Positions 13,847-57,642 of a DNA stretch of 64,000 bases are shown piece after piece. Each line of letters starts with the position of its first letter. Position 1 is the stretch's first letter. The notes beneath the pieces are model-generated. The model searched no databases, was not told the DNA's origin, and was given only the letters and a program-made list of their open reading frames with translations. The stretch is taken from assembly GCA_963924555.1 (NCBI GenBank), contig OZ004581.1, positions 8,471,338-8,535,337 on the forward strand, given 5' to 3'. The position numbers were made by a program, and so were the translations under genes. Source of the DNA: Crambe crambe. Lineage: Eukaryota > Porifera > Demospongiae > Poecilosclerida > Crambeidae.

Positions 13847-14154
13847 CTAGTTATACATGTAAAACTTAGCTTCTATCGACTTTGCGAGTTGATTGAGTTT
13901 GCATTTTTCCAGTACAGAAATAAGAGTTTCCCAGGACACAGGGTTTTCCCCCCCTCCTTGTAGCCATTCTTGTAAGATTTGAATATTGATTTCTTCTGCA
14001 TTTTTCATTTTTTCTTGTTCTATGGCTTTAACGCGTGCACCAGTCTTATCATTAAGGAGACATATTCCAAATTTTCTATACTTGTCCCCTAACTCTTCAA
14101 CCAACTCATATTGGATAATTTCAGGCATGGATGGGGAGCTGCGAAGTCCTGGTC
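13847..14154 (-). CDS. death-domain exon (subtype A), copy 1, with stop
   Basis: Encodes ELVEELGDKYRKFGICLLND, then an alpha-helical segment, ILQEWLQG and NPVSWETLISVLEKCKLNQL. It aligns along its length with the exons at 31125-31442 and 59379-59684. Unlike those two, it has no good donor after the last helix and runs into a stop, so it is probably the last exon of the ZU5 gene. Confidence 0.78.
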
Positions 14155-18785: not shown

Positions 18786-19720
18786 AGGCCACCACGCTGA
18801 AAGAGCAGTTCGCTTCCACTTTCTCCCCTGCAGACACAATATCTAACCTCCCAATCATGCACACTATAAAGTGCTCCTCCAAGGAGGTCTCTCACCTACT
18901 GTCTACAATCCATTGCAATACAGCTACCGGTCCAGATGATATGTCTAGCACCAATACTTGTTCTTCTATCTACTTTCCATTAACCAACCTCTTTAAGTTC
19001 CTGAGGGCTGGAAGCTTTCCAACATAATTCACAAATCAATCTTGTTGTCAACTACCGGGTGTTATACCCCTCATTTCCAAGGTTCTAGAAAGGATAGTGC
19101 ACAATGCTATCATTACACATGTCCTTGAGAACAATTACCTGTCGCCAGACCAATTTTTTTCATCCAAGGGCTTCCACACAAACTGTTCTCTCAGTCACCC
19201 GTGTGGTATTAGGCCCTGGCAGACAACAGCATGCAGTGTTGTTGTTCTATATATTCTTTGATTTGAGCAAAGCTTTTGATAGTCTATCCCACTCACTTGT
19301 AATCAACGCATTAGCCAGAGTAGGGATTTGTGGTAACCTCCTTGCCTGGATCAATGACTATTTGGTTGAATCACATCAACTGTATATGTGCCAAGGCAAG
19401 AAAACTCTCCACCGCTTCCTTCGAGGGGCTGGTCAATGTTGCCTCAGTGTTCAGATCACTAGTTCTTCCTATCTTAGACTATGGTGCTCTGCCGTCGCAC
19501 CCTTAAGGGTGAATCTCTCATTCCAAAGGATGTTTTCTAGTCAAATCCATTGGGCGACTCCACTCACTCGCTCTTTTCAGACTGGACAGGCCAGCTTCAC
19601 TAACAGTGTTATCTCACACTGGAACTGTCTACCAGAAAAAAATTATTTCTGTTCTTTCTTTTAAAGGTCATTTAAAATTACATCTGCAATTGTATCTAGT
19701 CTCTTGTGTATCTTGTGTTG
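18786..19720 (+). pseudogene. LINE reverse-transcriptase remnant
   Basis: Across shifting frames the plus strand reads TATGPDDMS, then VIPLISKVLERIVHNAI and LSPDQFF, then FFDLSKAFDSLSHSLVINAL and LLAWINDYL, and finally FTNSVISHWNCLPEK. These are motifs of non-LTR retrotransposon reverse transcriptases and of their common C-terminal end. FDLSKAFDS is the usual place of the first active-site Asp. Frameshifts, stops and a missing YxDD core show it is dead. Confidence 0.8.
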
Positions 19721-29704: not shown

Positions 29705-32700
29705 AAAACAAAGAAAAAAAGATGAACCTTGTGGAGTGTGTGCTTCTTTTGAAATAGGAAGGGTGGATGCTGAGGTGAATTGCTGCAATACTTCTGAATC
29801 TGTATTTAAAAGGTGATACCATAAACTACACATCTATACATGATTCAAAACACCATTGCAATTAAGTACAAAAATCTAAGTTTACCTTCATACTTTCCAT
29901 GGATGGAACATTTCTCAGCATTGAGAGCTGCTTTGAGATCTGCCGCCAATTCTTCCTGTCGGCCATCTTTCAACAAGTTGTATAAGCCTCTCCATTTCTC
30001 TGAGTAGCGTTTGCAGTGGGGCATTTGGGGAGCATTGGCCAGCCATTCTCCAATCACATCTCGTAAGCAATCAACATCGGACTCTTGCTTTGCTACGGAC
30101 TTGATGCGATAAGGTGGGATGCCAACAAGCTCAGCTATCTTCTTCCAGTAGGGAGCCAAGTCATCCAGGATTCTGATTTCTCTGTGCTTGGCAGTTTCGC
30201 AGTCAAAGTACTTGATCAGTTGTAAGCTTTCAATGGTTGCATCTTCATCCCAAAGAGGACTTGTACCAACTGTTGTAATGATAAAAATACATGTTCACAT
30301 TATACTGTAGTGGATTGTAATCATGACTGCATGGCTATATACCTTGTTTGCTAACTTATACTACTAAATCACATACTAACCACATTAACAATACTAACAC
30401 TGGATGGGGCCCCCACTTTCTGGCACCCCAGGTGTTAATTTTTTGAAAACAAAGGTAAGTCATCATGTTATAGCTCAAAAGTTAATTTTTTGAAAACAAA
30501 GGTAGCTACCCTCAGTCATCATGTTATAGCTCAAAAGTAGGTTAGGAGGCGATATAAATATCGTGACTGACTAGACCTATAAAATTCATCATTCATTGCC
30601 TAATATTATTCACTCTAACACACGCTCTGACCGTGTATTACCTGTATGAGCAAATCGTGAGGACTGATGGTGTCTCTTAGACTCTGTCAAAGGTTGTTCG
30701 TCTATTAAAGATCGTTTGCCTATCAGAGAATATCAAGATCATGTGGTAATTAGAATGCTGTATACTGTAGGCACAGGAAACTGTTAAGATTAAAATTACA
30801 AGCTGAAAATAATTTCGGGATCAACTTAAGATATAATTATTTGAAAGATGATTAACCAAATTCCAATTTTTTTCCAAGCAGAATTGATATACTCTCCATG
30901 CATAAATAAACATCGATCAATTTATAAAATAAAGGAAGAATAGCCATCATGCATGTCACTCGGCCCCAGCAGCAGGCAATGATATAGCTATTATGCACAT
31001 GCATTATTTTCCATGTGCTTGCTACGAAAATTAGACCTGCGGAAGTTTTTTATTATAGGAACAGGTCCAGAAATCACAAAATTTTAAACCTCCGAAAATT
31101 TATACAATTACGGTATCCAATTACCTTTCCAAATCACAGTGTCTCTAATAGATTCAGCAAGTTGGTTCAATCCAATATCTTCCAGCACAGACACCAGAGT
31201 CTCCCAGGACACAGGTTGTCTCCCTTCCCCAAGCAGCCATTCATGAAACACTCGATAGTTGATGTCTTGTGCTTTCTTCATCAGTTCTCTCTCAAGGGCA
31301 CTGATGCGCGCTCCAGTCTGGTCTTCCAGGAGGAGTGTTCCGAACTCAAGGTACTTAGTTCCAACTTCTTTAGTCAAGTTCACTTTAGAGTCTTGCAAAG
31401 GGCAGCAGATGATGTCCGTCATGGTTGGGGGACTGCAAGAACCTGCAATTAAAGCCCCATGAAGTTTCACTCAGATAAGGGAGTCTATAGTCCACCAGAC
31501 CCACTTGCCAGTGTATACATGTACTGTAACTATGACGACTGTAGTGATAGGCATTCCTGCTTATGATTGCATCATGCATTTGCAGCACATGCACTTGAAG
31601 CTGCACTGTGTTGAAAGACATGAATTGTATTGCCAGTCAGAGGCAGTTGCCAGCTCATCTAAGGGCACTGGAAGAATGGTTCATATTGAAGTCAGAGAAG
31701 TGTCTAATCAGACAACCTTATGATGAGATCACCTAGCTCTCTATTATTAGTGCTGGTCACATGACTTGTGACCAATCAGATTCTCTGAAAAGTGTGCTTT
31801 AAATCTCATAAAGCACACTTTCATGTGCACTAAATATTTAGTGCACACTTGAGAAACTGTGCTGAAGGTACATAGGAGCCTAGTGGAAGATCCACTAGGA
31901 CTATGACCTTCCAGCCTCAGTCCCTAGTGCTTACAGTAAGTATATGTCTTAATGTTTTCTTTTATAGACTTTAGCATTTCACTTTTTACATTGGGTTTCA
32001 AACAGGAAAACCTCAGGAATTTACCTCATTTATTTTTTTGAATATCATTAAATTAGAGCATTCTTACTGAACCAAAGTGTGTCAGAGCTTGCTAGGTACC
32101 AGGGCTAGGCTAGGGCTAGGGTTCTGTAAGGACCAACTGGAATTTGATTGGTCACAAGTCATGTGACCAGCACTAAAATGTTTAGATCACTCTTTTCTAG
32201 CTCCATGTGTTTTAATGCATGGTGCACTCGAATGATGCTATAATGCTCTCAGTGATGTAATGCACTCGCCTTCGGCTCGTGCATTACATTCACCTCGAGC
32301 ATTATAGCATCATTCTCGTGCAGGTGCATTAAAACACTTAGAGCTAGAAAAGAGTGAACTAAATATTACTTAAAGGCCACTCCACCATGTTGCATTTATT
32401 TCAGCTACAGTGAAACCTGTCTAATCAGACCACCCCACAATGAGACCACCTAGCTATAAAGCCACTCCATCATGTTCCAACAGCACTTATAATTGATCTC
32501 CCTAAAGAAACAACCTCCCTATTAAGGTCACTTGTTCCTGGCCCATAGGTGCATTCAGTAAGTAGGTTGCACTGTACATGTAAAAGAGGAGCCTTAAAGT
32601 GCATGTTGTGATTCACCAACTGAAATGCCTGGAACTCCACGCAGTACTAGTTCTACTAATACTAGAGGTTGTCCCTTTACAGAGGAAAATCATATATTGG

Positions 32701-33639: not shown

Positions 33640-36600
33640 ATAAATGATGAACCTTGTGGAGTGTGTGTTTCTTTTTCCTTATAACTTCCGTCTTTGTGGT
33701 ACATTAGTCTAGATGGGGGGGAGTGTTAAATCATGAAAAATTATTATTTGGCATAACTTACTTCATTTGCATGTCTTTTATTCCTATGCAACTCAAGTGG
33801 TTGAGGAGGTAAGGTCTGGCTGGAATATTCATCATCTCCATCTCCTTCTGCCATTTTTCTAGCAGAATCATAGCATCATTTTCGATGTATGGAAGATGTT
33901 CTGACATCTCCAAGGCTTCTGCCAGTTCCTTCACCGTCTCACACTTCAGAACCTCCATGGCAATAACTTCAAGTTCAGAGGAAGAGATGTTTGCATTAGG
34001 TGAATGGTCCTGCATGAAATAGGTAAAGAGCAACAGTCATTATGAAATGAGACAAAGAGGTATGACTCACTTGTCGAATATTGAACCAAAATTTCTGGAA
34101 ATCATTTAACTTTGTTTGATTCCCTTTCTGACAAATGAGGGATGGGTTGGAAGTGGTGGGATATGATGGAAGGATCACAAAATGATCGTTTTGTGGGCAG
34201 CCTTCACATTTCAGTGCAAAATCAATATTGGTTCCAGGAAGCCACTTTTTGATATCAGAAGATGAGTCTTGAAGTATTTCAAGAATATCACGACATGAAC
34301 TTATGAAGAAGGGACAGTTGTACTCTCTTGAATTGATACGTTGTACATCAACTCTCACACTAAACTTTTCTTCTGTAATGAAAAGTCTGTCCTGTTGCTG
34401 TCCAGGAGATCCAAACAAAAATTGGATTTGATTTCGATATATTTTTTCATTGACAGGTAAATAACATTTCGGGTGCTTTGACATGACTGCTGCCAGTTGA
34501 GTGAAGAAGCCTGGAGGCAAGTAGTTGGTGTTGAAAACAAGATGAAAAGGAATTGCAAATTTGATGGCAGTGCTAATTGATTGTGGATCATCAACTTTCA
34601 ATAAATGAGGTAGCATGGATGGAACGAAATACTTCATACCAGGACCCTTATGCTTTTCGATACTGATTGTAGCAATAATCAAGAAATGTTCCAACAGATC
34701 CACAATTTGTTGAGGTTGCAACTCTTTTTGAGCACTCAATACTTCCTGGTATAATGATTCTACTAATACTCCATCCTCACGCAGCAACTTCCAGAGACGG
34801 CTGTTTCTATATTCTTCTCGGCCTTCCAGTGCCAACAAACGGGCTATTTGCTTGATGAGCCATTGAGGGTCAGCAATGACACAAGACTTCAAGCTGGGGA
34901 TGTCTGAGTAGTGAAAGAACACGGCAAGATCGTGATAGAATGCAAGAATGCTAGTAAGAGTATCTTCAGGGATTAAACATGCTCTGCACAATTTCTTCAC
35001 TTCCTCTAAAGGAACTACTGGCTTCTTTTGAGATCTGGCATATCTCTGGAACACTTTCCTGAATAGCAACCAAGTGATTGGAGTACGAATAGCTAAGTTT
35101 TTTGTTGCAAACTTATTCACAATTGTACGAATGACCTTAAAAGTGTTATCTTCTTCAAGCTCTCCTTTACCAGCTGTTGTGTTATCGACTATTGCTCCAT
35201 CCAAAACAATGTCAGAAAAAGCTTTATCTGTAAATTCTGTAGAAAGCTTTTCAAGAATCTCATCCTTCCTTTCCTTGACAGAAAAATCATCACCATGTGA
35301 ACCAACTGGTAGAATGCGGGGATATTTGGGGAATGCTTCATCTTTATCATTTTCTTTATCGAAAAAGAGTCTCTTATTCAAGAAAGTAGCATGAATGGTG
35401 GATATCCACTGCACCATCAGGTCCAGTGTGGATATATCTTCTAGATGCTCAGTGGCTCTTCCTTTCAAATATGTGAGTGACCGACACTGATCATGGAGAT
35501 CAAGTCTGGCATCAAACATTAAGAGAAACAATGTCCTCGCTGTTAGGAATGCACGAAGAATTTTAAGAAAGACTGGCTGGCCTCCACAATCCCACACATT
35601 CAGATAAACTTCCTCTTCAATAAATGGGTCATCAGTGGTTATAACAGAAAGAATCTCTTTCCAAATCCCCTCAATTAATGGGTCGTCAAACTTGGGGACA
35701 ATTTTACTAGATTGACTTTTGCCACTGCTCACATCACTTCCACTGCTTGCATCACTTTCTGTGGCAGAATTAGAATCTTTGTGCTCAAGAATAGTTTGTA
35801 TCAACTGAGCCATTGCCTTGATTTCATCAGCATCAATTATTTTAGTCCAGAACTTTCCTTCCTGGCTGCAGGCCCAGTAACTCTCAGTGGGACGGAGGGA
35901 GAATGTGTCAGCCACCTGGGTGCTGTAGGCTTCACAGGGAAGGGGCAGATTCATCAAGCCATTGAGTAGACTGCTCTTGCCCACACCTCCAGGACCAACG
36001 ATCATCACACGAGCATATGCAACCTTCGTTTCACCATGCCCCAGGGCATTCAGGTAATCCACTGAAAATCAAACGTACAAAATAATTAATATCAATCAAA
36101 ATAAAAATATTACCTTCAGTCCTTGAGGCTCGAAACTCAATGAAAAAGGATTCAACATGGAAACAAAGTTGATTCATAAGTGAATTATGCACAAAAGACA
36201 TACACTCACCACCTGAAAATATGAACACCACAACAGTGAAAGTATTATGAGATTCAGTGAGCAAACACAGGGAGAAAGCTGACTCTCAGATCATGACTCA
36301 ATGTATGTGTTATGATTAACAATGCATTAATTTTGGTAGACAACATGTAAGTAACAATGCAGAGAGTGAGTCAGTTCAGAATAACTTACTTGCTGAAGGA
36401 ATGAAATTAAGCATCAAAATACGACAGTGAAGGTATGGCAGGGTAAGAGAATAGAGAGCATATAAGTAACAATGCAGAGAGTGAGTCAGTTCAGAATAAC
36501 TTACTCGCTGAAGGAATGAAATTAAGCATCAAAATACGACAGTGAAGGTATAGCATGGTAAGAGAATAGACAGCATGTAAGTAACAATGCAGAGAGTGAG

Positions 36601-39600
36601 TCAGTTCAGAGTAACTTACATACTGAAGGAATGAAATTAAGCATCAAAAGACGACAGTGAAGGTATGGCATGATAAGAGAATAGACAGCATGTAAGTAAC
36701 AATGCAGAGAGTGAGTCAGTTCAGAATAACTTACAGACTGAAGGAATGAAATTAAGCATCAAAATATGACAGTGAAGGTACGGCAGGGTAAGAGAATAGA
36801 CAGCATGTAAGTAACAATGCAGAGAGTGAGTCAGTTCAGAATAACTTACAGACTGAAGGAATGAAATTAAGCATCAAAATACGACAGTGAAGGTACGACA
36901 GGGTAAGAGAATAGACAGCATGTAAGTAACAATGTAAAGAGTTCAGAATAACTTACAAACTGAAGGAATGAAATTAAGCATCAAAATACGACAGTGAAGG
37001 TACAACAGGGTAAGAGAATAGACAGCATATAAGTAACAATGCAGAGAGTGAGTCAGTTCAGAATAACTTACTGGCTGAAGGAATGAAATTAAGCATCAAA
37101 ATACGACAGTGAAGGTACGACAGGGTAAGAGAATAGACAGCATGTAAGTAACAATGCAGAGAGAGAGTCAGTTCAGAATAACTTACAGACTGAAGGAATA
37201 AAATTAAGCATCAAAATACGACAGTGAAGGTACGACAGGGTAAGACAATAGACAGCATGTAAGTAACAATGTAAAGAGTGAGTATATTCAGAATAACTTA
37301 CCAACTGAAGGAATGAAATTAAGCATCAAAATACGACAGTGAAGGTACAACAGGGTAAGAGAATAGACAGCATGTAAGTAACCATGCAGAGAGTGAGTAC
37401 GTTCAGAATAACTTACCGACTGAAGAAATCATCAAAATATGTCAATGAAGGTACGAAAGGGTAAGAGAATAGACAGCATGTAAGTAACAATGCAGAGAGT
37501 GAGTCAGTTCAGAATAACTTACAGACTGAAGGAATGAAATTAAGCATAAAAATACGACAGTGAAGGTACGACAGGGTAAGAGAATAGACAGCATGTAAGT
37601 AACAATGTAAAGAGTGAGTCAGTTCAGAAAAACTTACTCGCTGAAGGAATGAAATTAAGCATCAAAATACGACAGTGAAGGTATAGCATGGTAAGAGAAT
37701 AGACAGCATGTAAGTAACAATGCAGAGAGTGAGTCAGTTCAGAGTAACTTACATACTGAAGGAATGAAATTAAGCATCAAAAGACGACAGTGAAGGTATG
37801 GCATGATAAGAGAATAGACAGCATGTAAGTAACCATGCAGAGAGTGAGTCAGTTCAGAATAACTTACCAACTGAAGGAATGAAATTAAGCATCAAAATAC
37901 AACAGTGAAGGTACGGCAGGGTAAGAGAATAGACAGCATGTAAGTAACAATGCAGAGAGTGAGTACGTTCAGAATAACTTACCAACTGAAGGAATGAAAT
38001 TAAACATCAAAATACAACAGTGAAGGTACGGCAGGGTAAGAGAATAGACAGCATGTAAGTAACAATGCAGAGAATGAATATGTTCAGAATAACTTACAAA
38101 CTGAAGGAATGAAATTAAGCATCAAAATACGACAGTGAAGGTACAGCAGGGTAAGAGAATAGACAGCATGTAAGTAACAATGCAGAGAGTGAGTCAGTTC
38201 AGAATAACTTACTCGCTGAAGGAATGAAATTAAGCATCAAGATACGACGACAGGGTAAGAGAATAGACAGCATGTAAGTAACAATGCAGAGAGTGAGTAC
38301 GTTCGGAATAACTTACTCGCTGAAGGAATGAAATTAAGCATCAAAATACGACGACAGGGTAAGAGAATAGACAGCATGTAAGTAACAATGCAGAGAGTGA
38401 GTACGTTCAGAATAACTTACCTCCTGAAGGAATGAAATTAAGCATCAAAATACGACAGTGAAGGTAAGACAGGGTAAGAGAATAGACAGCATGTAAGTAA
38501 CAATGCAGAGAGTGAGTACGTTCAGAATAACTTACATCCTGAAGGAATGAAATTAAGCATCAAAATACGACAGTGAAGGTAAGACAGGGTAAGAGAATAG
38601 ACAGCATGTAAGTAACAATGTAGAGAGTGAGTACGTTCAGAATAACTTACCTCCTGAAGGAATGAAATTAAGCATCAAAATACGACAGTGAAGGTAAGAC
38701 AGGATAAGAGAATAGACAGCATAGACAGCATGTAAGTAACAATGCAGAGAGTGAGTACGTTCAGAATAACTTACCGACTGAAGGAATGAAATTAAGAATC
38801 AAAATACGATGACAGGGTAAAAGAATAGACAGCATGTAAGTAACAATGCAGAGAGTGAGTACGTTCAGAATAACTTACCAACTGAAGGAATGAAATTAAG
38901 CATCAAAATACAACGACAGGGTAAGAGAATAAACAGCATATAAGTAACAATGCAGAGAGCGAGTAAGTTCATAATAACTTACCTCCTGAAGGAATGAAAT
39001 TAAGCGTCAAAATACAACAGTGAAGGTACAGCAGGGTAAGAGAATAGACAGCATGTAAGTAACAATGCAGAGAGTGAGTACGTTCAGAATAACTTACCTC
39101 CTGAAGGAATGAAATTAAGCATCAAAATACGACGACAGGGTAAGAGAATAGACAGCATGTAAGTAACAATGCAGAGAGTGAGTACGTTCAGAATAACTTA
39201 CCTCCTGAAGGAATGAAATTAAGCATCAAAATACGACAGTGAAGGTAAGACAGGGTAAGAGAATAGACAGCATGTAAGTAACAATGTAGAGAGTGAGTAC
39301 GTTCAGAATAACTTACCTCCTGAAGGAATGAAATTAAGCATCAAAATACGACAGTGAAGGTAAGACAGGATAAGAGAATAGACAGCATAGACAGCATGTA
39401 AGTAACAATGCAGAGAGTGAGTACGTTCAGAATAACTTACCGACTGAAGGAATGAAATTAAGAATCAAAATACGATGACAGGGTAAAAGAATAGACAGCA
39501 TGTAAGTAACAATGCAGAGAGTGAGTACGTTCAGAATAACTTACCAACTGAAGGATGAAATTAAGCATCAAAATACAACGACAGGGTAAGAGAATAAACA

Positions 39601-42600
39601 GCATATAAGTAACAATGCAGAGAGTGAGTACATTCAGAATAACTTACCAACTGAAGGAATGAAATTAAGCATCAAAATACAACAGTGAAGGTACGGCAGG
39701 GTAAGAGAATAGACAGCATGTAAGTAACAATGCAGAGAGTGAGTACGTTCAGAATAACTTACCCCCTGAAGGAATGAAATTAAGCATCAATATACGACGA
39801 CAGGGTAAGAGAATAGACAGCATGTAAGTAACAATGCAGAAAGTGAGTACATTCAGAATAACTTACCAACTGAAGGAATGAAATTAAGCATCAAAATACA
39901 ACAGTGAAGGTACGGCAGGGTAAGAGAATAGACAGCATGTAAGTAACAATGCAGAAAGTGAGTACGTTCAGAATAACTTACCTCCTGAAGGAATGAAATT
40001 AAGCATCAAAATACGACAGTGAAGGTACGGCAGGGTAAGAGAATAGACAGCATGTAAGTAACAATGCAGAGAGTGAGTCAGTTCAGAATAACTTACTCGC
40101 TGAAGGAATGAAATTAAGCATCAAAATATGACGACAGGGTAAGAGAATAGACAGCATGTAAGTAACAATGCAGAGAGTGAGTACATTCAGAATAACTTAC
40201 CAACTCAAGGAATGAAATTAAGCATCAAAATATAACAGCGAAGGTACGGCAGGGTAAGAGAATAGACAGCATGTAAGTAACAATGCAGAGAGTGAGTACG
40301 TTCAGAATAACTTACCAACTGAAGGAATGAAATTAAGCATCAAAATACGATAATGAAGGTACGGCAGGGTAAGAGAATAGACAGCATGTAAGTAACAATG
40401 CAGAGAGTGAGTCAGTTTAGAATAACTTACTTGCTGAAGGAATGAAATTAAGTATCAAAATACGACGACAGGATAAGAGAACAGACAGCATGTAAGTAAC
40501 AATGCAGAGAGTGAGTACGTTCAGAATAACTTACCTCCTGAAGGAATGAAATTAAGCATCAAAATACGACAGTGAAAGTAAGACAGGGTAAGAAAATAGA
40601 CAGCATGTAAGTAACAATGCAGAGAGCGAGTACGTTCAGAATAACTTACCTCCTGAAGGAATGAAATTAAGCATCAAAATACAACAGTGAAGGTACAGCA
40701 GGGTAAGAGAATAGACAGCATGTAAGTAACAATGCAGAGAGTGAGTACGTTCAGAATAACTTACCAACTGAAGGAATGAAATTAAGCATCAAAATACAAC
40801 AGTGAAGGTACGGCAGGGTAAGAAAATAGACAGCATGTAAGTAACAATGCAGAGAGTGAGTCAGTTCAGAATAACTTACTCGCTGAAGGAATGAAATTAA
40901 GCATCAAAATACGACGACAGGGTAAGAGAATAGACAGCATGTAAGTAACAATGCAGAGAGTGAGTACGTTCAGAATAACTTACCTTCTGAAGGAATGAAA
41001 TTAAGCATCAAAATACGACGACAGGGTAAGAGCATGTAAGTAACAATGCAGAGAGTGAGTATGTTCATAATAACTTACCTCCTGAAGGAATGAAATTAAG
41101 CATCAAAATACGACAGTGAAGGTACGGCAGGGTAAGAGAATAGACAGCATGTAAGTAACAATGCAGAGAGTGAGTACGTTCAGAATAACTTACCTCCTGA
41201 AGGAATGAAATTAAGCATCAAAATACGACAGTGAAGGTAAGACAGGGTAAGAGAATAGACAGAATGTAAATAACAATGCAGAGAGTGAGTACGTTCAGAA
41301 TAACTTACCAACTGAAGGAATGAAATTAAGCGTCAAAATACAACAGTGAAGGCAAGAGAGGGTAAGAGAATAGACAGCATGTAAGTAACAATGCAGAGAG
41401 TGAGTACGTTCAGAATAACTTACCAACTGAAGGAACATCAAAATACGACGACAGAGTAAGAGAATAGACAGCATGTAAGTAACAATGCAGAGAGTTAGTA
41501 CGTTCAGAATAACTTACCAACTAAAGGAATGAAATTAAACATCAAAATACAACAGTGAAGGTACGGCAGGGTAAGAGAATAGACAGCATGTAAGTAACAA
41601 TGCAGAGAATGAATATGTTCAGAATAACTTACAAACTGAAGGAATGAAATTAAGCATCAAAATACGACAGTGAAGGTACAGCAGGGTAAGAGAATAGACA
41701 GCATGTAAGTAACAATGCAGAGAGTCAGTTCAGAATTACTTACTCGCTGAAGGAATGAAATTAAGCATCAAAGTACGACAGTGAAGGTAAGACAGGGTAA
41801 GAGAATAGACAGCATGTAGGTAACAATGCAGAGAGTGAGTACGTTCGGAATAACTTACTCGCTGAAGGAATGAAATTAAGCATCAAAATACGACGACAGG
41901 GTAAGAGAATAGACAGCATGTAAGTAACAATGCAGAGAGTGAGTACGTTCAGAATAACTTGCCTTCTGAAGGAATGAAAATACGACAGTGAAGGTACGAC
42001 AGGGTAAGAGAATAGACAGCATGTAAGTAACAATGAAGAGATGTTCAGAATAACTTACCTCCTGAAGGAATGAAATTAAGCATCAAAATACGACAGTGAA
42101 GGTAAGACAGGGTAAGAGAATAGACAGCATGTAAGTAACAATGCAGAGAGTGAGTACGTTCGGAATAACTTACTCGCTGAAGGAATGAAATTAAGCATCA
42201 AAATACGACGACAGGGTAAGAGAATAGACAGCATGTAAGTAACAATGCAGAGAGTGAGTACGTTCAGAATAACTTACATCCTGAAGGAATGAAATTAAGC
42301 AAATATAACAGTTAAGGTAGGACAGGGTAAGAGAATAGACAGCATGTAAGTAACAATGCAGAGAGTGAGTACATTCAGAATAACTTACCTCCTGAAGGAA
42401 TGAAATTAAGCATCAAAATACGACAGTGAAGGTAAGACAGGGTAAGAGAATAGACAGCATGTAAGTAACAATGAAGAGAGTGAGTACGTTCAGAATAACT
42501 TGCCTCCTGAAGGAATGAAATACGACAGTGAAGGTAAGACAGGGTAAGAGAATAGAATGTAAGTAACAATGCAGAGAGTGAGTACGTTCAGAATAACTTA

Positions 42601-43973
42601 CCCACTGAAGGAATGAAATTAAGCATCAAAATACGACAGTGAAGGTACGGCAGGGTAAGAAAATAGACAGCATGTAAGTAACAATGCAGAGAGTGAGTCA
42701 GTTCAGAATAACTTACTCGCTGAAGGAATGAAATTAAGCATCAAAATACGACAGTGAAGGTACGGCAGGGTAAGAGAATAGACAGCATGTAAGTAACAAT
42801 GCAGAGAGTCAGTTCAGAATTACTTACTCGCTGAAGGAATGAAATTAAGCATCAAAGTACGACGACAGGGTAAGAGAATAGACAACATGTAAGTAACAAT
42901 GCAGAGAGTGAGTACGTTCAGAATAACTTACTTGCTGAAGGAATGAAATTAAGCATCAAAATACGACGACAGGATAAGAGAATAGACAGCATATAAGTAA
43001 CAATGCAGAGAGTGAGTACGTTCAGAATAACTTACCTCCTGAAGGAATGAAATTAAGCATCAAAATACGACAGTAAAAGTACGGCAAGAGAACAGACAGC
43101 ATGTAAGTAACAAAATGCAGAGAGTGAGTTTATTCAGAATAACTTACCCGCTGAAGGAATAAATTAAGCATCAGTGACAGTATGACAGGGTAAGAGAATA
43201 GACAGCATGTGAGTAACAATGTAGAGTATGAGTTGGTTCAGAATAACTTACCATCTGAAGCATCAAAAACAACAATGAAGGTACGACAGGGTAAGAGAAT
43301 AAACAGCATGTAAGTAATAGTGCTGAAAGTTGTCAAGAATAACTCACGTCCTGAAGGATCTAAATATGTCAATGAAGGTATGACAGGGTAAGATAATGAG
43401 AAGTGATAAAACAATATGTTAATGAAGTATAAGTAATGACTTACCAGGAGAAGGGGTAATAAGTTCCAACATCAAATTGAGTGTGTATGGTGTGAAAGAA
43501 CATGATGCCAAATATAATAATGTCAGTCTTGAATGACTCACCTCCTGAAAGAAAACATTGATACACATACTAACTAAAGGTCGTGATCATAACATAATTC
43601 AGCACTTTCTAATCAATAAATATTCCAGACACAATCTTGAAACCTCCTTCCTTTTTTTGGTAAAGGGTTGACAAGTGAGAATTGGCCCCACCCGTACGTA
43701 CCCATGGGCCACATAGGCACACTGCAGTACAGCACAAGCTGCACTTCAGGTGAGGAAGGAATGAGCTTCCAAGTCATTACCAGTGGGTTGCATTGGTACA
43801 CCCTCTATAATCAATACTCCACAACTAAACATGACTAAATGAGCTGTCACACCCTAGTCCCTAGTCCCTAGCTACCTTTTTCATGTGAATACACTCACAA
43901 AATATGGTTCAGCTCTTCTAGAAGTAGCCTTCTTCTCTGCTTCTTCATTCTCTTCACCTTTTTTATCACTCAT
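26690..43973 (-). CDS. ROC-COR GTPase with several death-like domains and an upstream microexon array
   Basis: Exons in order: 43973-43899; the three-base array 43544-36210; 36135-36114; 36061-34071 (ROC-COR); 34009-33762 (death-like); 33708-33653; 33037-32919; 32857-32803; 31442-31125 (death A); 30719-30642; 30269-29886 (death C); 29799-29728; 28030-27953; 26799-26690. Every junction checked is in phase. The 3' end is unsettled: it may go on through 26576 and 22936-22420 to the broken death domain at 22005. ROCO GTPases such as DAPK1 also join ROC-COR to a death domain, so a nucleotide-controlled scaffold in death or immune signalling is the best guess (inference). Confidence 0.75.
26906..27646. 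mobile_element. 741-bp element with 9-bp target duplication
   Basis: Ends TAGCCTCAAACCCAGCC and GGCTGGGTTCGAGGCTA extend into imperfect inverted arms of roughly 90 bp. ACACTTTCT is duplicated at 26897-26905 and 27647-27655. A paralogous segment at about 33150-33180 shows the uninterrupted target. A 9-bp duplication suggests a Mutator- or Merlin-like enzyme (inference). Confidence 0.88.
27953..28030 (-). CDS. 78-base KRSL linker exon, copy 2 of the ROC-COR gene
   Basis: Encodes GKRSLIDEQPLTKSKRHHQS then SQFAHT. It is phase 1 at both ends. The same exon occurs at 30642-30719, 58542-58619 and 61741-61818, always 78 bases. It is basic and His-rich and probably flexible. Confidence 0.72.
28105..29131. 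mobile_element. 1,027-bp inverted-repeat element at a TTAA target
   Basis: Ends AGGGTAGGTGAAATGAAAA and the complement, with arms of roughly 350 bp; TTAA is present on both sides (28101-28104 and 29132-29135). The paralogous intron near 30780 has the same flanks with a single TTAA and no insert, which is the empty site. TTAA use fits piggyBac- or Kolobok-type transposases (inference). It has no coding region. Confidence 0.92.
29631..29701. repeat. (GA)n microsatellite after exon 29728-29799
   Basis: About 70 bases of GA, which is CT on the gene strand, beginning about 27 bases into the intron. Confidence 0.95.
29728..29799 (-). CDS. short linker exon ending HTPQ
   Basis: Encodes DSEVLQQFTSASTLPISKEA then HTPQ. 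The donor is GTTCAT, weaker than other donors in this gene, and is followed by a long CT run. The exon at 33653-33708 has the same donor and CT run. Confidence 0.6.
29886..30269 (-). CDS. death-domain exon (subtype C)
   Basis: A 384-base exon, phase 1 at both ends, encoding about 128 residues. The segments APYWKKIAELVGIPPYRIKS, CLRDVIGEWLAN and WRGLYNLLKDGRQEELAADL carry the WKKIA/LG, EWL and L..AL helices of a death domain. No other copy is found in this window. Confidence 0.75.
30642..30719 (-). CDS. 78-base KRSL linker exon, copy 1 of the ROC-COR gene
   Basis: Encodes GKRSLIDEQPLTESKRHHQS then SRFAHT, phase 1 to 1, between death domains A and C. Confidence 0.72.
31125..31442 (-). CDS. death-domain exon (subtype A), copy 2
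   Basis: A 318-base exon, phase 1 at both ends. It encodes DSKVNLTKEVGTKYLEFGTL, LLEDQTGARISALERE, FHEWLLGEGRQPVSWETLVS and VLEDIGLNQLAESIRD. The landmarks EFG, EWL, PVSWETL and L..L fit a death domain. The closest relative is 59379-59684, where most positions are the same. Confidence 0.8.
31748..32178. mobile_element. MITE with 32-bp terminal inverted repeats
   Basis: Left end TTAGTGCTGGTCACATGACT continues for 12 more bases and returns exactly inverted at 32147-32178. Inside are two further hairpins: AAGTGTGCTTTA with its inverse, and the palindrome TGCACTAAATATTTAGTGCA at about 31836-31855. Confidence 0.85.
32187..32359. mobile_element. fold-back element of about 173 bp
   Basis: The sequence beginning ACTCTTTTCTAGCTC folds back on itself almost along its full length, around a loop near CTCGCCTTCGGCTCG at about 32265. 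It adjoins the MITE at 31748-32178. Confidence 0.8.
32405..32787. mobile_element. CAGTGAAACC-type MITE
   Basis: Begins CTACAGTGAAACCTGTCTAA and ends TTTCACTGTAGCTA. Related copies are at about 60288-61070 and, degenerate, at about 52880-53040. Confidence 0.7.
32803..33708 (-). CDS. linker exons between the first two death-like domains
   Basis: 33708-33653 encodes LMYHKDGSYKEKETHTPQ. 33037-32919 encodes ALNQLQSAPQLQPGCSPTPT then QSTPSLTSKIQPLGTSSAPD. 32857-32803 encodes SEPTRKSVEASQVKDDTL. Phases run 2-1, 1-0, 0-1 and join exactly to the death A exon at 31442. Pro/Ser/Gln-rich, low complexity, likely unstructured. Confidence 0.68.
33574..33636. repeat. (GA)n microsatellite after exon 33653-33708
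   Basis: About 63 bases of GA, CT on the gene strand, starting about 16 bases into the intron. Confidence 0.95.
33762..34009 (-). CDS. death-like domain exon next to the COR domain
   Basis: A 248-base exon entering in phase 0 and leaving in phase 2. Encodes SSSELEVIAMEVLKCETVKE, LAEALEMSEHLPYIENDAMI, LLEKWQKEMEMMN and LLNHLSCIGI. The helix pattern and the LLEKWQ position fit a compact death-fold domain. Its paralogue is 20658-20905. Confidence 0.72.
34071..36061 (-). CDS. ROC-COR GTPase exon
   Basis: A 1,991-base exon encoding about 663 residues. Walker A / P-loop GPGGVGKSS lies near residues 23-31, the DxxG switch appears as DCGGQP at about 158-163, and SHGDD near 255-259 is in the place of the base-contacting G4 motif. 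COR follows, with CVIADPQWLIKQIARLL as the typical DPQWL strand. Near the end a Cys pair (CEGCPQND) is shared with the COR exon at the right edge of the window. ROC-COR proteins work as GTP-controlled dimers. A Ser-rich loop (SDASSGSDVSSG) interrupts the G domain before switch II. Confidence 0.88.
36114..36135 (-). CDS. 22-base exon between the array and the GTPase exon
   Basis: Encodes FRASRTE plus one base, which joins the next exon to give V-DYLNALGHGE. The acceptor is CCTTTTTCATTGAG and the donor GTAATA. It starts in phase 0, matching the phase of exon 1 and of all three-base units. A longer alternative exon that reads upstream to 36212 would not match the phase. Confidence 0.65.
36210..43544 (-). 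repeat. tandem array of 66 candidate single-codon microexons
   Basis: Unit about 115 bases (variant 104). On the minus strand each has TGCTTAAT (candidate branch point), TTTCATTCCTTCAG, three variable bases, then GTAAGT (GTGAGT at 36210, 43348 and 43542). Triplets, minus strand, by lowest coordinate. GTG 36210; CAA 36390, 40431, 42932; CGA 36505, 37638, 38213, 38317, 40097, 40880, 41744, 41859, 42174, 42717, 42828; TAT 36620, 37753; TCT 36735, 36850, 37187, 37523; TTT 36957, 38098, 41633; CCA 37072; TTG 37302, 37868, 37983, 38879, 39545, 39648, 39867, 40201, 40316, 40765, 41309, 41424, 41518; TCG 37417, 38775, 39441; GAG 38421, 38651, 38983, 39098, 39202, 39317, 39982, 40535, 40650, 41079, 41194, 42059, 42389, 42504, 43036, 43542; GAT 38536, 42278; GGG 39763; AAG 40984, 41963; TGG 42602; CGG 43148; ATG 43252; GAC 43348. 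A further unit at 43445 has lost AG. Use as exons is inferred. Confidence 0.8.
43899..43973 (-). CDS. first coding exon of the ROC-COR gene
   Basis: ATG at 43973; 25 codons, MSDKKGEENEEAEKKATSRR then AEPYF, followed by GTGAGT. Highly charged, no signal peptide, so a cytosolic protein. It ends in phase 0. The next candidate exon is the three-base unit at 43542-43544. A further GTAAGA donor lies upstream in what is probably the 5' untranslated region. Confidence 0.65.
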
Positions 43974-45645: not shown

Positions 45646-47726
45646 TTAAATACACAACTCCTGATCTGAAATGAAGTGAGACACTAAAGGCATCTCAGGA
45701 ACAATCAGTTCACAAGGTTGTGGCCCAGCCCCACCCATTTCTTTCACAGCTAAATACTGTGAATGTGATGAGCTGTAATCTGGGAGATCTTCATCACTGA
45801 AGGAAACGTCAAATTCATTCCCAGAATACTCTTCACTGGAGCTGGCAGTAGAATCTTCATTGGAGTAGATACTCCCCTCGTTTCCACTCATCTCAGGAGG
45901 TACTTCGTGGGACGGCTGGTAAGTGGTGCAAGCACGAAGAGAAAATGGCATTGTGATCACAAACTCATCTCCCTCAACATTCGCTTCAGGGAGAAGTGGC
46001 ATAGCATAGCTGCCATCTTGTGTCTCAGTGGCCTCATCATTCGCATCACCAGCTGCTTCAATAATCACTATGGCATTGTTTGGACCAAGACCAATAAAAA
46101 GCGCAAATATTTGTAAAGACGTGAAAAAAACTGGCCGACAAGGATAGTGATTCTCCATCTGTTCTGATTCAATGGAGCTTGGAATTCAGATGATGCAGAA
46201 TCGACTGAGTAATGAGGTGTAACGTCAGAAGTCTGAAAGTGATGAGAGTCAAGTCATTACCAGGTGAGGTGAGGCCTGAGCATGAAAAGATTTCAAGTAC
46301 ACTGGGAAGGATTCCGAAGTATTGGACAACCAAGAGGATTCAAGTAGCAACTCTTGATCGTTTAACGCACCATTTCCACCACCATTCAATCGTGCTAGTT
46401 CTCTGTTTAGCCTGTCACCCACTTTTTGGCGAGGAACAGAGAAACATTCGTGGTGAGTGGCTTGCATGCTGGCATATCTCTGAAGTAGTTCCTCTACAGG
46501 ATTGGGAGAGAATTGTGGAAGATAAGACTGTACATTTTGATGGAGAGGGTTGATGGTTTTTATACCGAATATGTCGATGAGAGTCAAGGTATAGCGATAC
46601 AAGCACTTGGAGAGGTCACGTGCCGAGGATCGGTTCGATAGTCGGACTTCTTTGCAATTCTGTAGATGATTCTGCAGGTAGAAAAATGAATTTATCAAAT
46701 GGATGTGTAATCTGCTCATATAGTTTCATTGCTGCTGAAACATAGTTTATAGTTCACCCAACAGTGAAAATAAGGATAAAACGCTTCACAGTGAAATCTC
46801 TGAACAAGGGGCCAAATTCAGCCAAACTGAATGGAATGAAATGACCTTTCCTAACCTCCGGAAAGGGCCAACCTCTCTACAAAGATCAAAGAAAAAAAAA
46901 AAAAAATCTGTCCCAAACATTGAACCTGGCTGTTGTTCAGTATGTGCACATCTGCCCTCAGAACCTCCCTTTATACTCTCAATCCCCTCGGAACCTCCCT
47001 TTATACTCTCAATCCCCTCAGAACCTCCCTTTATCCACTCTCAATCCCCTCGGAACCTCCCTTTATCCACTCTCAATCCCCTCGGAACCTCCCTTTATCC
47101 ACTCTCAATCCCCTCGGAACCTCCCTTTATCCACTCTCAATCCCCTCGGAACCTCCCTTTATCCACTCTCAATCCCCTCGGAACCTCCCTTTATCCACCC
47201 TCAATTCCCTCGGAACTCCCTTTATCCACTCTCAATCCCCTCGGAACCTCCCTTTATCCACTCTCGAACCTCCCTTTATCCACTCTCAATCCCCTCGGAA
47301 CCTCCCTTTATCCACTCTCAAACCCCTCAGAACCTCCCTTTATCCACTCTCACTTTTAACTGTTGTCTTGGAAGAACCAACTCACACAATGGACACACCA
47401 CTGGTCAAGATCTGAACGAGGTCCTAGACATGACGTAATCTATGCTTACATGTGTCTGCGACCGACGACTGTGATCTATCGTGCCATGCCTTCCAAGTAT
47501 CATCTCACACTTTAGCTATTTAACTCTAATGACTTACCCTGCTGGCTACATCATCGAGCAGCCTTTTGTTTCGAGCATTGTAATCAGATAGCTTCTTTCT
47601 TTGGCCACGGCTTGTATACGTATTGTTGTAAGAAGATCGGCAATGCTGAATTGGAAGTTGCTTAATAACTGACATGGTTGGAAAGCTAGGTAACTCATAG
47701 AAGACTAAACTATCGGATATACTCAT
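45646..47726 (-). CDS. unrecognised protein, three exons, about 370 residues
   Basis: Exons 47726-47538 (63 codons), 46671-46261 (137 codons) and 46158-45646 (170 codons and stop); all junctions are GT-AG in phase 0. I do not recognise the family. The N-terminus (MSISDSLVFYELPSFPTMSV) is followed by a basic stretch (RGQRKKLSDYNARNKRLLDD). The middle is helical (FSPNPVEELLQRYASMQATH, VGDRLNRELARLNGG). The C-terminal 120 residues are acidic and Ser-rich (NEDSTASSSEEYSGNEFDVS, FSDEDLPDYSSSHS). There is no signal peptide and no clear membrane segment, apart from a hydrophobic stretch (FFTSLQIFALFIGLG) early in exon 3. A regulatory or nuclear protein is possible; this is a guess. Confidence 0.6.
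46962..47354. repeat. minisatellite, 32-bp unit, about 12 copies
   Basis: Units read GGAACCTCCCTTTATCCACT then CTCAATCCCCTC. It lies in intron 1 of the unrecognised gene. Open frames run through it in all three plus-strand frames because the unit lacks stops. Confidence 0.95.
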
Positions 47727-53504: not shown

Positions 53505-56500
53505 TAAATTAATTGTTTCACAGGCAATTTACTGTAGTGAAGCCATGCGCGAGTGCGTTATTTAATAATAATTAGTGACCTTTGTACTTTAATTATCAAT
53601 ACACAGTTCTTGACCACAAAAATGCATTATTATGCTAATCTGGGCTTTTTGGTGGAAGCCACTGTCTGTACTTTACTGCGTTTACGTTTGAAAACTTTTG
53701 GCTTGCTATTAAAACAAGATTCACAGGTTGGCACTATATCAACAGCTTCCTCTCCTCTCATAATTTCATCAAGTGTTCCACAATGCACACATACATTCTC
53801 AAATACTTGTGAAGAATAGTATGCAGTTTCTACTCTGGTAGAGCAAGTTAAGTTTCCAAGAACAAATACACGCTGAAGGAGATCTCTGTGTAATGGAGGG
53901 GTATCATCAGAGACTAAATCACTCAACTGGCTGCCACAACTGTACATTACATCACAGAGCAGGTCTTGCAAACACCTTTCCTCAGGATGCTTGAGCTTCC
54001 GTTGGGAGTAAAGAACTCTGGGTTTTAGGCACTCACAGCACTGTATAGTCTCACACACATTCCTAGCAAACTGAGCATTGGGTTGGAAAGGTAATCCGTG
54101 TGATTTCTTGACCCCTTTCAAAAGAGTTGGACGAAACTGTTCTGTAGTCGAAGTTCCATATATTTCTTCAAAATTCTTATAATGCTCTCCTGTGCAGTCA
54201 GGAACCGGATCAGGTAAGTGGTAAAGAGAACTAAAGACTTCAGGAGGCAAACGAGGAGGAGCACAAATAGTACATGTGGCCTTACCACACTTCTTGATAC
54301 TGAATGAATATGCACGCTCTTGGCAACAATGACGGAGGAAGTTTCTCAATCCTGGCCGTTCATTTAATATAGCTTTGGAATGATCTTTCCTTATCAATTG
54401 GGGGTCGATCCGAAGAATATGGCTCCAAAATGAATCCAAGTCAGCAGAAGATGCCGCATGAAACACTTTAAAAAAATGTTCTTTGAGCTTTAACCAGACA
54501 AAGAGCGATTCAAGTAGTAATTTCACAGGCTCCATGGAATCAGTGAGAGCACTTCGAAGTTGAGGACGTGCTTCAGAGGCTTCTCGGATCTGCTTCACAC
54601 GATTGCAGTTTACTATTCATTTTTCAAGATCTTCTGTCATGCTGGAACGCATGAGGCCCACTGCTTGTAATGCAATGTTCACAATAGACATGATACGCTC
54701 CACTGGATTTTTCCAGGAGTGGTATGGTGGTGTACGTACTGCAATCAGCATGTCAAGATTCTTTTCTAGGAAGAGATTAATCAGAGCAATCTTGGTAGCC
54801 AGAAAAGTTGTGTTATGGTCAGGTCCACCATCGGTATATAAACACAGAATAGGCTTGCCATCACATTTTTGTGCTGTCATATTCTACAACAGTAAAGATA
54901 AATATTATTGCAGAGGCCACACATACATATACTGGGCCCACAAACCACTGATTGTTGAGGCGAGTGTTATATAGAACATGGGGATTGCATGAGACTACTA
55001 GCATGAGGGTTTAACCACATGGGATTTTAAAGAATTAAGTACTCCAAAACCTGAGGGGGGAGGTCATTAAATAGAAACATATACTTACCTTGGAGAACTC
55101 GGTAGCATGTCTTAAAGCTGAGGATGGCTCGAGTGCAAGATCTTTCAACCCAACAAACACCTGTCCACGATGGAATGACTCATCAGGAGAATTCGGAATA
55201 TCAACAATAAGGGCAACACTTGGAATCAGACTAAAACGTGTAAAGTCATGGTCTGAAACAGAGAACGATCGGTTGAGGGAGACAAGCACAGACTTTCCAC
55301 GTTCAACAGCAGCAACTGGGTGGCCGGGTTCACCTACTTTACAATGGTGCTTATCATCCAGTGAGGCAAAGGTGCAAAAGGAGTCATATTTTACAGAAAA
55401 TGATCTAAGATATCGGTAGATAGCTGAAGCATAGTGAGCATCTTCATGAAATTTCCTTAACTGCCTTGCCTGCACCATGTGTTTGACCTTCAGGCGACCT
55501 GTATACTGTGAAGCCGATTGTTTGGATGGATCTTTTGGCCAAAATTGGTAACGTAACCAAGCTTCTGAAGGTGTAGGAGTACCTTCTGGGCACTTCTTGG
55601 CAACTTCAGTGAGCAAATCCCGAGCAGAAAGAGCTGAAGCAAGGTAAGTAACATCTCCATGCCGCCTTTCCTGAACACACATTTCAGTTACACTCTCCAG
55701 ATATCACTTACATTCATCCCAAAAGAATGAATACTTCTCAGGCTGTCCCTTGTTCAATTCTCTCAAATCACACACAATTGACGAATCTTCACAGTCCAAT
55801 AGGAGGCGCACACGCTCATCAACCTTCACCTCATTAGAAGTACGGCTAGCTGATACATCTCCAGTCAATCGTTTATAGATCTCACGAAGATAAGCTGGTT
55901 TAATAGCACAAATTCGCCCAAAAGTGTATGTGGCTGCTTTTTGCATGGTTCGAGTATGGTACACACCAATTCTGTCCTGAATAGACTGTGCAGTTTTCAA
56001 GTTTTTGTCCAGCAATTCACTCGGACTGGTTTCATCAGGAATACGCCAAATGAAATGAAGTGTACCCAAATTGTTCCCATAAGCATGACTAAACATCACC
56101 GCATGAACATCAATTCCCTCAGATAAACAATCAAGGTAGTACCTTCGTTTTCGAACATCTTGAGGGCACAGATCATTCAAGAATACAGGGCAAAAATAAC
56201 TCGCTTCCTTCAAAACACTATTGATAGCCTTATAGCGTTCAACGTAGGCCAACTTAACAGGAAAATTTGGATTGAATATCTGGAATTTTTCAGCTTCAGA
56301 AGATCCTCTGATTGGAACTGGTGATTGATGGCGATCACTTGCTTTTTTCCGCTGTTGGTCAAGATAATCACAGTAGGATGAGAGACTGTTAGCAATTTCT
56401 TTAATACTTTCATTTATACTTGACCAGATGCTTCTACTCAACCATGGCTCTTCACTAATATGAAATAAGTTTTGACTGAATGTTCGTAATTTAGAAGCAT

Positions 56501-57264
56501 CCATTGGAATTCGCTTGTGTCCATGAGATTCAGGTTTGTTGAAGCCTGAAAATCTGGCATAAAGACTAGGTATTGTGATGTTACGACTCATTAGTGTATT
56601 TTCATGCCCATCAATATACCACAAGACATCTGTCAGAACATCCACAAACTTCTTCCCAGTTGTTTCAACAGCATCAGGACTCCAACCAAGCCCCTGCTCA
56701 TCCAGAAAATCAATAAATTTGTTCTTCAGCTTGTCTTTATTAGTTCGCTCAGCCACTCTCTTCGGAACATGCTTAATTAGCTGCACATCCCTCATAACCT
56801 GAAAAGCATCCCGAAGAGGCCTCTTCACCAACTCAGTAACTGCTTTTTCCTTAGGGCTGATGACAAACTTCAAGAACTTCCCAAAACACAGCATATCTCC
56901 AATTTTTGCACTTAAAAACGATGTTTGAAAAGGTCCTGAAGCAGTGGTGCCAATGAAACACTCAAAAGGTTGGTCTTTCAGGTCTTCTGGAAACAAAAAT
57001 CTCGAGCAACCATCCATTTCTTGTTTAGAAAACTGTTCAAATGCTTCTGCTAGTGTAGCTAACTCATCAATAGGATGTAAACCCCAGTTCTTCAAAACTT
57101 TCAGGCCAACACAAATTTGCACCGACATGACAGCCATTTTGAAACTGAGCACGCACGTGCATGCACGTGTTTAATTAATTTACTGCGCATGCGCAGTAAA
57201 ATTAAATTAAATAGCATGCTGGTGATAATTAACACGCGTGATTGCCTGTGAAACAATGAATTTA
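53505..57264 (-). mobile_element. 3.76-kb DDE DNA transposon with 24-bp inverted ends
   Basis: The left end (53505-53528) and the complement of the right end (57241-57264) agree at all but about one of 24 positions; both contain ATTGTTTCACAGGCAAT. They bracket the transposase gene exactly, with 100 bases or so to spare on each side. I see no clear target duplication outside the ends. I cannot name the superfamily. Confidence 0.82.
53630..57137 (-). pseudogene. DDE transposase with two in-frame TGA codons
   Basis: Two exons, 57137-55089 and 54883-53630, joined in phase 0 across a 205-base intron; about 1,100 codons. TGA occurs in frame at 55704-55706 and at 54617-54619; otherwise each exon is open. 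Catalytic candidates: FASLDDKHHCKVGEPGHP (first Asp), YTDGGPDHNTTF (second Asp) and SWKNPVERIMSIVN (Glu, in the NPxE setting common to many DDE enzymes). The C-terminus has several Cys pairs (CGKATCTICAPP, CCECLKP, CVHCG, CESC) that look metal-binding. The N-terminal 480 residues have no motif I can name. Similar proteins are common in sponge and cnidarian genomes (from general knowledge, not checked). Confidence 0.75.
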
Positions 57265-57328: not shown

Positions 57329-57642
57329 TCACACATCATAGCTATCCTCCACCTCCTTCTCCCACCAACCTACCATACAGTACTTTTGTTCGATACTTGT
57401 TGCAATGTCTTTGCGATTAACCAAAGGGTCTCTGAGGACTGTGCAGAGACTGCTCCAAGATGGTGGCTGACTTCCCTTCATCTTTAACCACTGCTCAATG
57501 AGATCCTTCATGCAACCATTGATGTCATTGGGGTTGTCATATCTGATTTTATCAACTTCTGCATCTGGCAGTCCTAAAGCTGCTCCAAGATCTCTCCACT
57601 CCCTCACTATATCAATCAGTGTTGTCCTCACATTGCGATAGG
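57329..57642 (-). CDS. terminal death-domain exon (subtype B), copy 3, intact
   Basis: Encodes YRNVRTTLIDIVREWRDLGA, ALGLPDAEVDKIRYDNPNDI, LIEQWLKMKGSQPPSWSSLC and DPLVNRKDIATSIEQKYC, then a short acidic tail and stop. It is the best-preserved copy and the reference for the two others. Confidence 0.82.

Follow-up and report, generated by a model that had tools for sequence, protein, structure and literature searches.

A tandem series of 66 candidate microexons, each exactly one codon long, lies 5' of a ROC-COR GTPase gene in the window analysed here, a 64,000-nucleotide stretch of the genome of the sponge Crambe crambe. Judging from the sequence, the triplets are very likely used as exons in mRNA, and it is probable (roughly 0.7) that the 66 microexons are joined mainly in order as one chain, which would give a continuous, gene-specific N-terminal peptide of 66 residues. 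In many related signalling proteins of this genome, extended segments seem to be encoded likewise, one amino acid per exon, with near-identical introns separating the codons.

The one-codon array in the window

The first-pass annotation had described an array of 66 units of about 115 bases with nearly constant flanks, and its description was borne out on recount. All 66 units lie on the minus strand, and in each of them precisely three bases separate an AG from a GTAAGT-type donor. The step between units is 115 bases in 34 of 65 cases and 104 bases in 15. Typically, a candidate branch point (GATGCTTAAT) and a run of pyrimidines precede the AG, the three bases and GTAAGT. The triplets take the 17 forms tallied earlier (GAG 16 times, TTG 13, CGA 11), specifying 14 amino acids and no stop, and in transcript order they read EDMREQRRWEEDREKRRFLLLEEKRLEEQLLRELGLLSEEEELSEDERRFLLYRSSLSPFSSYRQV. 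Position by position, the variability of the triplet is 1.75, 1.88 and 1.46 bits, compared to at most 0.74 bits over the 18 bases upstream and at most 0.49 bits over intron bases 1-16 downstream; at intron bases 17-18 the variability goes up again. Where a [CT]AG site in the array is followed by GTAAGT within 30 bases, the gap is exactly 3 bases in 60 of 60 cases, and the strict motif, found 60 times on the minus strand, occurs neither on the plus strand of the window nor in 20 random Markov windows.

Some units are irregular. The unit at 40203 has TTGAG in place of TTCAG, those at 42506 and 41965 have GCAAGT donors, and one degenerate unit retains a donor but lacks an acceptor (Table 1). Units were collected by requiring at least 10 pyrimidines in 15 bases for the window count, or at least 9 in 15 for the counts over several arrays, together with a G[TC][AG]AG donor. 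This left out degenerate units, among them a GTAAAT unit and a 31-base exon in the array designated C1b and the units at 8234332-8234095 of the array designated C1c, both of which are treated below. Among the 873 units collected, 862 have GTAAGT donors, a figure to be read with the collector's own requirement for a similar form. With three bases from AG to donor, the array units fall within the size limit of microexons, which is about 30 bases. The window gave no match to Rfam and no tRNA. Two other tandem repeats in the window, at 46955-47352 and 58130-58356 (32- and 56-base units), contain no motif unit.

Table 1. Coordinates of the window gene and of the candidate array, in positions of the window
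Feature	Position	Strand	Remarks
Exon 1	43899..43973	-	75 bases (MSDKKGEENEEAEKKATSRRAEPYF), starting with ATG; phase 0 at its end; GTGAGT donor at 43898
One-codon microexon array (candidate), 66 units	36210..43544	-	First triplet 43544-43542 (GAG), last 36212-36210 (GTG)
Donor of degenerate unit without acceptor	43439..43444	-	Sequence
Proposed 22-base exon TTTCGAGCCTCAAGGACTGAAG	36114..36135	-	Phase 0 to 1; TTGAG acceptor, unusual
ROC-COR GTPase exon	34071..36061	-	Acceptor before 36061, GTGAGT donor at 34070
Exon after ROC-COR (DHSPNANISS...)	33758..34009	-	Behind a 61-base intron; ends at TAA or at an overlapping GTAAGT donor

The open reading frame at 33996-36068 carries the Pfam domains Roc (7.2e-9) and COR-A (2.4e-15) in one frame, as in Roco GTPases, and its protein gave a weak sequence match to the Roco chains 4wnr and 3dpu. 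Of the earlier label, a death-domain GTPase, the GTPase part stands, and a Death domain is not evident for this gene: the exon at 34009-33764 had no Pfam Death match up to E=1. A relative, P0070, which looks spliced, does contain Death domains (9e-12), with a different N-terminus that weakly matches a glycine zipper. The 22-base exon was chosen because, among the AGs tried by eye, it was the sole one joining the phase-0 array to the ROC frame, and by eye it is the counterpart of the PP..EEEIL exon of the genes on C11. Its need for a TTGAG acceptor counts against the chain reading.

Further domains were seen elsewhere in the window. Exons with ZU5 and Death domains (15772-16446 and 13847-14161, Pfam) have copies at C1:6608442 (97% identical) and C1:6610799 (92%), downstream of an 8-unit array remnant. 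Of three Death-like exons, the one at 57329-57673 passes the Pfam cut-off, and those at 59362-59760 and 31108-31470 fall below it. By eye, 18773-19664 and 53630-57170 contain open reading frames resembling, respectively, the remnant of a reverse transcriptase and a transposon-like gene; those at 53630, 55035 and 55704 had no Pfam match.

The triplets as probable codons

The avoidance of stops is one reason to regard the triplets as coding. Across 16 arrays (C1b and C1c excluded), none of 748 units is a stop when read in phase with the flanking exons, as far as these were visible, whereas base composition at the three positions predicts 54.2. When each codon was counted only once per array, the figures were 0 stops in 165 types against 11.0 expected, and 5,000 shuffles never gave fewer than three. 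Inclusion of C1b and C1c raised the count to 2 stops in 873 units (68.5 expected), or 2 in 199 types (14.3 expected), owing to one TGA in each of these arrays in the phase-0 reading, which counts against the chain reading. The arrays moreover spell coherent peptides, each array its own (ERHRDYPPPDDPYYSPPPPDDPDYS..., IRRLGAAKAAGYARAAGYARRLG...), with PPPPDDPDYS repeats in one C11 gene. Together with the exact three-base length and the phase 0 of the flanking exons, these results strongly support the proposal that one-codon coding exons precede the ROC-COR domain.

The same tendency was seen in the genome at large, where CCTTCAG-TRR comprises 72 TGG and 4 TGA sites and no TAA or TAG. One of the four TGA sites lies in C1b and three on C12; the one C12 site inspected is outside any array. 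The looser TTYAG-TRR gave 58 TGG and 5 TAG sites, the latter counting against the chain reading. Units of the form TTCAG-TAG-GTAAGT are located at C1:8424768, 8611693, 8636858, 8668426 and 9004724, and are either stops or zero-base exons formed by way of the second AG; in units with TTCAGTAG directly before GTAAGT, splicing might occur at that second AG.

Other properties of the triplets were less uniform. On C11, four-fold-box triplets end in T in 208 of 219 cases and two-fold-box triplets in 138 of 190 (p=3e-10, or p=0.003 with each codon counted once per array). The C1 arrays lack this effect when counted by array (p=0.8) and show the opposite direction when counted by unit (p=0.013), which speaks against the chain reading. 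Amphipathic periodicity was assessed in 10 arrays against two nulls. The array of the sister gene described below gave 0.01 by shuffling and 0.06 by relabelling, the array at C11:7183455 gave 0.02 by relabelling and 0.09 by shuffling, and the remaining 8 of 10 were not significant by either null; that helical periodicity reached significance by one of two nulls in only 2 of 10 arrays is likewise counted against. Triplets ending in C are almost missing in 18 arrays, with only GAC, CTC and CCC among 42 types, perhaps because C followed by GTAAGT gives a CpG.

Distribution of the arrays in the genome

The unit type, at first noticed in a single array, is spread through the genome far beyond it. 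In a scan of 143 Mb (119 contigs), CCTTCAG-NNN-GTAAGT was found at 3,040 exact sites, compared to 5 for a reversed-pattern control. The longer motif CCTTCAG-NNN-GTAAGTTATTCTGA was found at 2,282 exact sites and TTYAG-NNN-GTAAGTTATTCTGA at 2,786, with none in either control. Spacings of 0-2 bases between exact CCTTCAG and GTAAGTTATTCTGA were absent genome-wide, and thus so was the acceptor abutting a donor, or zero-base exon, of a recursive splice site with exact flanks; a few degenerate units of C1c resemble zero-base sites. Spacings of 4-30 bases occurred at 3 sites, each being two units fused, so that no true exon of 4-30 bases (6, 9 and 12 included) was found with exact flanks anywhere in the genome. 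No viral contig contained the tandem motif pattern.

The association with ROC-COR genes is seen on C11, where the fetched stretch at 7.13-7.27 Mb contains 12 arrays of at least 3 units and 12 ROC-COR genes, every array being located 5' of its own gene and ending about 0.55-1.7 kb from it. The plan is that of an exon 1 of the MAERRQEKKL type in phase 0, the array, an exon like PPHEPTEEEILE and the ROC exon. Exon 1 was located for 7 of the 12 genes and ends in phase 0. The PPHEPTEEEILE-like exon, judged by eye, starts in phase 0 and ends in phase 1 in all 6 genes inspected for it. A third ROC-COR group, with 4 genes at C11:5.83-5.89 Mb, includes one inspected gene with an array of at least 16 units and an intron version of its own, and the same array plan is hence seen in three ROC-COR groups. 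The intron consensus of the C1 type is 71% identical to either C11 type, and the two C11 types are 84% identical to one another; the C1 and C11 ROC-COR proteins share about 41-46% identity over long matches. On C1, the search gave 23 ROC-COR genes by our own count after merging of pieces, 5 of them with internal stops. At least 227 units stand in one series on C1, from 6636360 to beyond 6663500, which lies behind a copy of exon 1 (84% identical); over C1:6.637-6.6635 Mb it spells a highly charged, coiled-coil-like chain.

A second class of genes was encountered on C1. The C1c array (about C1:8229163-8234625) is followed, instead of by ROC-COR, by a membrane-helix-like exon and an Ig exon (I-set, 1e-10). 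Six close copies of the Ig exon (94-100%) occur in the C1 cluster, and one of them, at 8817820, lies about 5 kb past the end of the fetched C1b array. Beside the Ig exon of C1c, Ig exons are found at C1:8375852, 8436407, 8817820, 9156743 and 9235186. Triplets begin with T or C in 97% of C1b units (the first 12 being excluded here and from the hydropathy analysis) and in 88% of C1c units, compared to 7-73% in the other 14 arrays listed. Both arrays would seem to read best in phase 1, as hydrophobic peptides with codons split over neighbouring microexons: ...QRESPL-YYTAIVIVLALALLAMLAIILASMFAAAAVAPM... for C1b and ...ERVIVAVAVILVVVVVVVVVDVEEGAPAVVVFFAMVF...AFVSASVMIKWMP-(Ig) for C1c. In this phase both TGA triplets cease to be stops, and the phase might change at an exon of 31 bases in C1b and at one of 4 bases in C1c. 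The details are less clear-cut: of the AGs in the helix exon of C1c, one agrees with phase 1 and another with phase 0; more than one path leads through the degenerate units at the start of C1c; and the 31-base exon of C1b recurs at 8825350, where it is unreadable in the manner of the first copy and would need an internal AG. The C11 arrays are also hydrophobic and mostly stop-free off-frame, despite phase-0 flanking exons where these were seen, and hydropathy by itself is therefore no proof of phase. The split-codon reading, if right, would be a hint that neighbouring microexons are joined in order.

Evolution of the arrays

A sister gene at C1:8720499-8722568 has a ROC-COR region of 100% identity (rounded) over 690 residues. 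The 330 bases that run from the ROC exon into the array, taking in the 22-base exon and the last microexon, are identical to the window, an identity that extends to the edge of the fetched sequence. The sister array, fetched up to 8730900 and comprising at least 69 units, spells RQIKSYLDGLSKESSKLPPEKIRQIKSYLDGLSKEKIRQI... and differs from the window array in 60 of 66 aligned codons, although both end on RQV. In the phase-0 reading, no string of 5 residues is shared between any two of the collected C1 arrays. That the GTPase and flank are identical and the array unrelated suggests that arrays have been swapped or rebuilt, and they seem to be exchanged as cassettes beside a constant GTPase.

Comparisons of introns point to how arrays grow. 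In all 11 arrays with such pairs, introns are closer (0.1-6.5% difference) between units that share a 5-residue context than between units with different residues (3.3-13.6%), the same-context difference being at most 2.9% in 10 of the 11, which indicates that intron and codon were duplicated as blocks. At the same time, among 282 unit pairs on C11 whose two flanking introns together show no more than 3 differences, the codons differ in 116, of which 93 differ at two or three positions and 114 are nonsynonymous. On C1 the codons differ in 12 of 136 near-identical-intron pairs, all nonsynonymous in phase 0; these tests were limited to introns of equal length, with C1b and C1c translated in phase 0. 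Between paralogous C11 arrays, 0 of 186 codon sites had changed compared to 92 of 8,132 intron sites, although with about 2 codon changes expected the absence of change is non-significant by itself. In the sister array, the second and third repeat stretches compared differ in one codon (2 of 33 sites). We read these patterns as introns under concerted evolution and codons held by selection. Targeted hypermutation of the triplets, an idea suggested by identical introns with different codons, was rejected as the main cause on the grounds that the C11 paralogs keep their codons while their introns differ, and the combination of concerted intron evolution and codon selection is the more likely of the two. 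Codon-intron lineages common to several arrays (the nearest unit of another array has the same codon in 24-39% of cases compared to 8% by chance) were set aside as support, since they are partly plain paralogy.

A proposed splicing chain

If the triplets are joined in order, exon 1 would be spliced to unit 1, and the donor lying three bases behind this junction would be used next. Repetition of the step would add one codon at a time to the growing exon, each time leaving the next GTAAGT three bases behind the junction. Splicing of this kind would be intron-defined and ratchet-like, because a three-base exon hardly fits both splice-site complexes at once, and recognition of such an exon by exon definition is hardly possible. 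Two introns of the window gene are 52 and 61 bases long, in keeping with intron definition, and near-perfect donors are what one would expect if the exonic bases next to the donor are variable. Crossovers between the introns of phase-matched arrays would give in-frame products, allowing duplication, trimming and exchange of the peptides in steps of one codon with the GTPase unchanged.

Protein and genome searches were made for traces of the array peptides. A protein search scored 8,000 candidates and gave 435 matches; among the 120 listed, 17 were read, none with an array peptide. By eye most of these look like unspliced genomic open reading frames; P0070 looks spliced. Residues 1-118 of the window model gave no match at E<=1 among 2,278 protein candidates, and residues 1-175 of a C11 model gave 9 protein matches, none over more than 50% of the query stretch. 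A search for retrocopies of the window N-terminus in the genome gave 33 matches at E<=10 (31 at E<=0.002), all inside query residues 1-34, and they therefore represent exon 1 with little or no array. The peptide of the sister gene gave no genome match, a negative that carries no weight.

The in-order chain was weighed against four other explanations. Independent skipping of real microexons, by which one gene could produce very many N-terminal peptides, is unlikely, yet it is the most plausible of the four, as exons of exactly three bases in one phase leave any subset in frame and near-identical splice sites give no obvious cause for pairing neighbours only. Against it, codon order is preserved between the paralogous arrays, the 31- or 4-base exon seems to set the phase of all later triplets in two arrays, and introns of about 100 bases together with intron definition would favour neighbours. 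The first-pass annotation had left it between a single residue chosen among many and a chain of residues, and had drawn a comparison with Dscam. The tandem layout, the near-constant flanks and the variable exon content indeed resemble Dscam-like choice, in which one or very few microexons per transcript would place a single variable residue. The two consensus units folded gave no signal beyond that of shuffled sequences (z +1.65 and -0.87), and the peptide composition and repeats are specific to each array. The frequent recurrence of the same codon, e.g. 16 GAG in the window array, and the long codon strings kept by the C11 paralogs favour the chain, so that we consider the choice of single residues quite improbable.

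The two remaining explanations have very little probability. A neutral tandem repeat within an intron, its units skipped and its triplets noise or splicing decoys, would be compatible with the multiplication of intron and codon blocks and with the occurrence of degenerate units, but not readily with the lack of stops in 748 units, the variation centred on the triplet, the absence of 0-2-base and true 4-30-base exons with exact flanks, or the presence of an array beside each ROC-COR gene of the fetched C11 stretch. Equally doubtful is a mobile intron placed between all codons of older coding exons. It would account for near-identical introns flanking unrelated codons and for the natural-looking peptides, but random insertion predicts exons of 6, 9 or 12 bases, and the insertions at many positions with varied exon lengths that mark mobile introns or introners were not found. 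Moreover, the closer introns of units sharing a residue context in 11 of 11 arrays, and the T-ending of four-fold codons on C11, which would be unlike an ordinary exon, argue against it.

Possible role and comparison with known systems

The family context makes it likely that the array peptide of the in-order chain is a rapidly diversifying recognition or interaction segment, as in an immune-like or self-recognition family, and the large GTPase clusters, the few Ig genes and the exchange of the array in one sister pair point to recognition biology. A bolder and rather tentative reading is that one kind of first exon and a codon array head both intracellular ROC-COR GTPases and membrane Ig receptors of one animal as address tags or recognition codes, perhaps with further variation from skipping. 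The array would then be a germline 'movable type', writing a private sequence in which each intron is a recombination joint and new sequences emerge in frame, and the tags could pair receptors with signalling partners or distinguish self from non-self.

If spliced as read, segments of 66 to more than 220 residues would be built with one splicing event per amino acid. This would be a new way to build and shuffle protein segments, would test the limits of the spliceosome through serial three-base exons in which each donor sits just three bases from the preceding junction, and would make intron recombination that can spare codon and frame an evolutionary tool that did not turn up in the literature search. 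A search of titles and abstract openings, largely open-access, gave no arrays of 3-nt exons, which is weak evidence of absence; such arrays would be easy to overlook, as three-base exons are difficult to annotate.

Dscam-type genes contain tandem arrays of alternative exons, which are similar to each other and vary in coding content. The arrays described here differ in having one codon per exon and no folding signal in two consensus units, and in that joining is favoured over choosing. Compared to Roco proteins, Roc and COR-A are common to both, and the N-terminal codon array is the difference.

Single 3-nt microexons have been described in mouse Ncam and Drosophila TnT (PMC8042270) and are listed for Drosophila homothorax (PMC7392893). 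The likeness lies in an exon of exactly three bases, which here would add one residue. Those are single exons of otherwise ordinary genes and are proven in RNA, whereas the present candidates, 66 to at least 227 in series, are read from genome sequence. Recursive splicing, as outlined in PMC8605326, uses ratchet points that look like zero-base exons in long introns. Common to it and the proposed chain is an acceptor with a donor directly behind it, so that every splicing step puts a further donor at the junction or close to it. The arrays may thus act as a ratchet without belonging to the recursive splice sites; the chain differs in that a codon would be left at each step, with introns of about 85-115 bases and dozens of steps consecutively. 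Plants have microexons of 1 to 15 nt that were missed by annotation, and those of 1 nt keep conserved GTRAGT donors (PMC8831610). The tiny exons and strong GTRAGT donors are common to both systems, and, as far as the sections of that paper used here extend, the serial array of 3-nt exons is seen only in the sponge genome.
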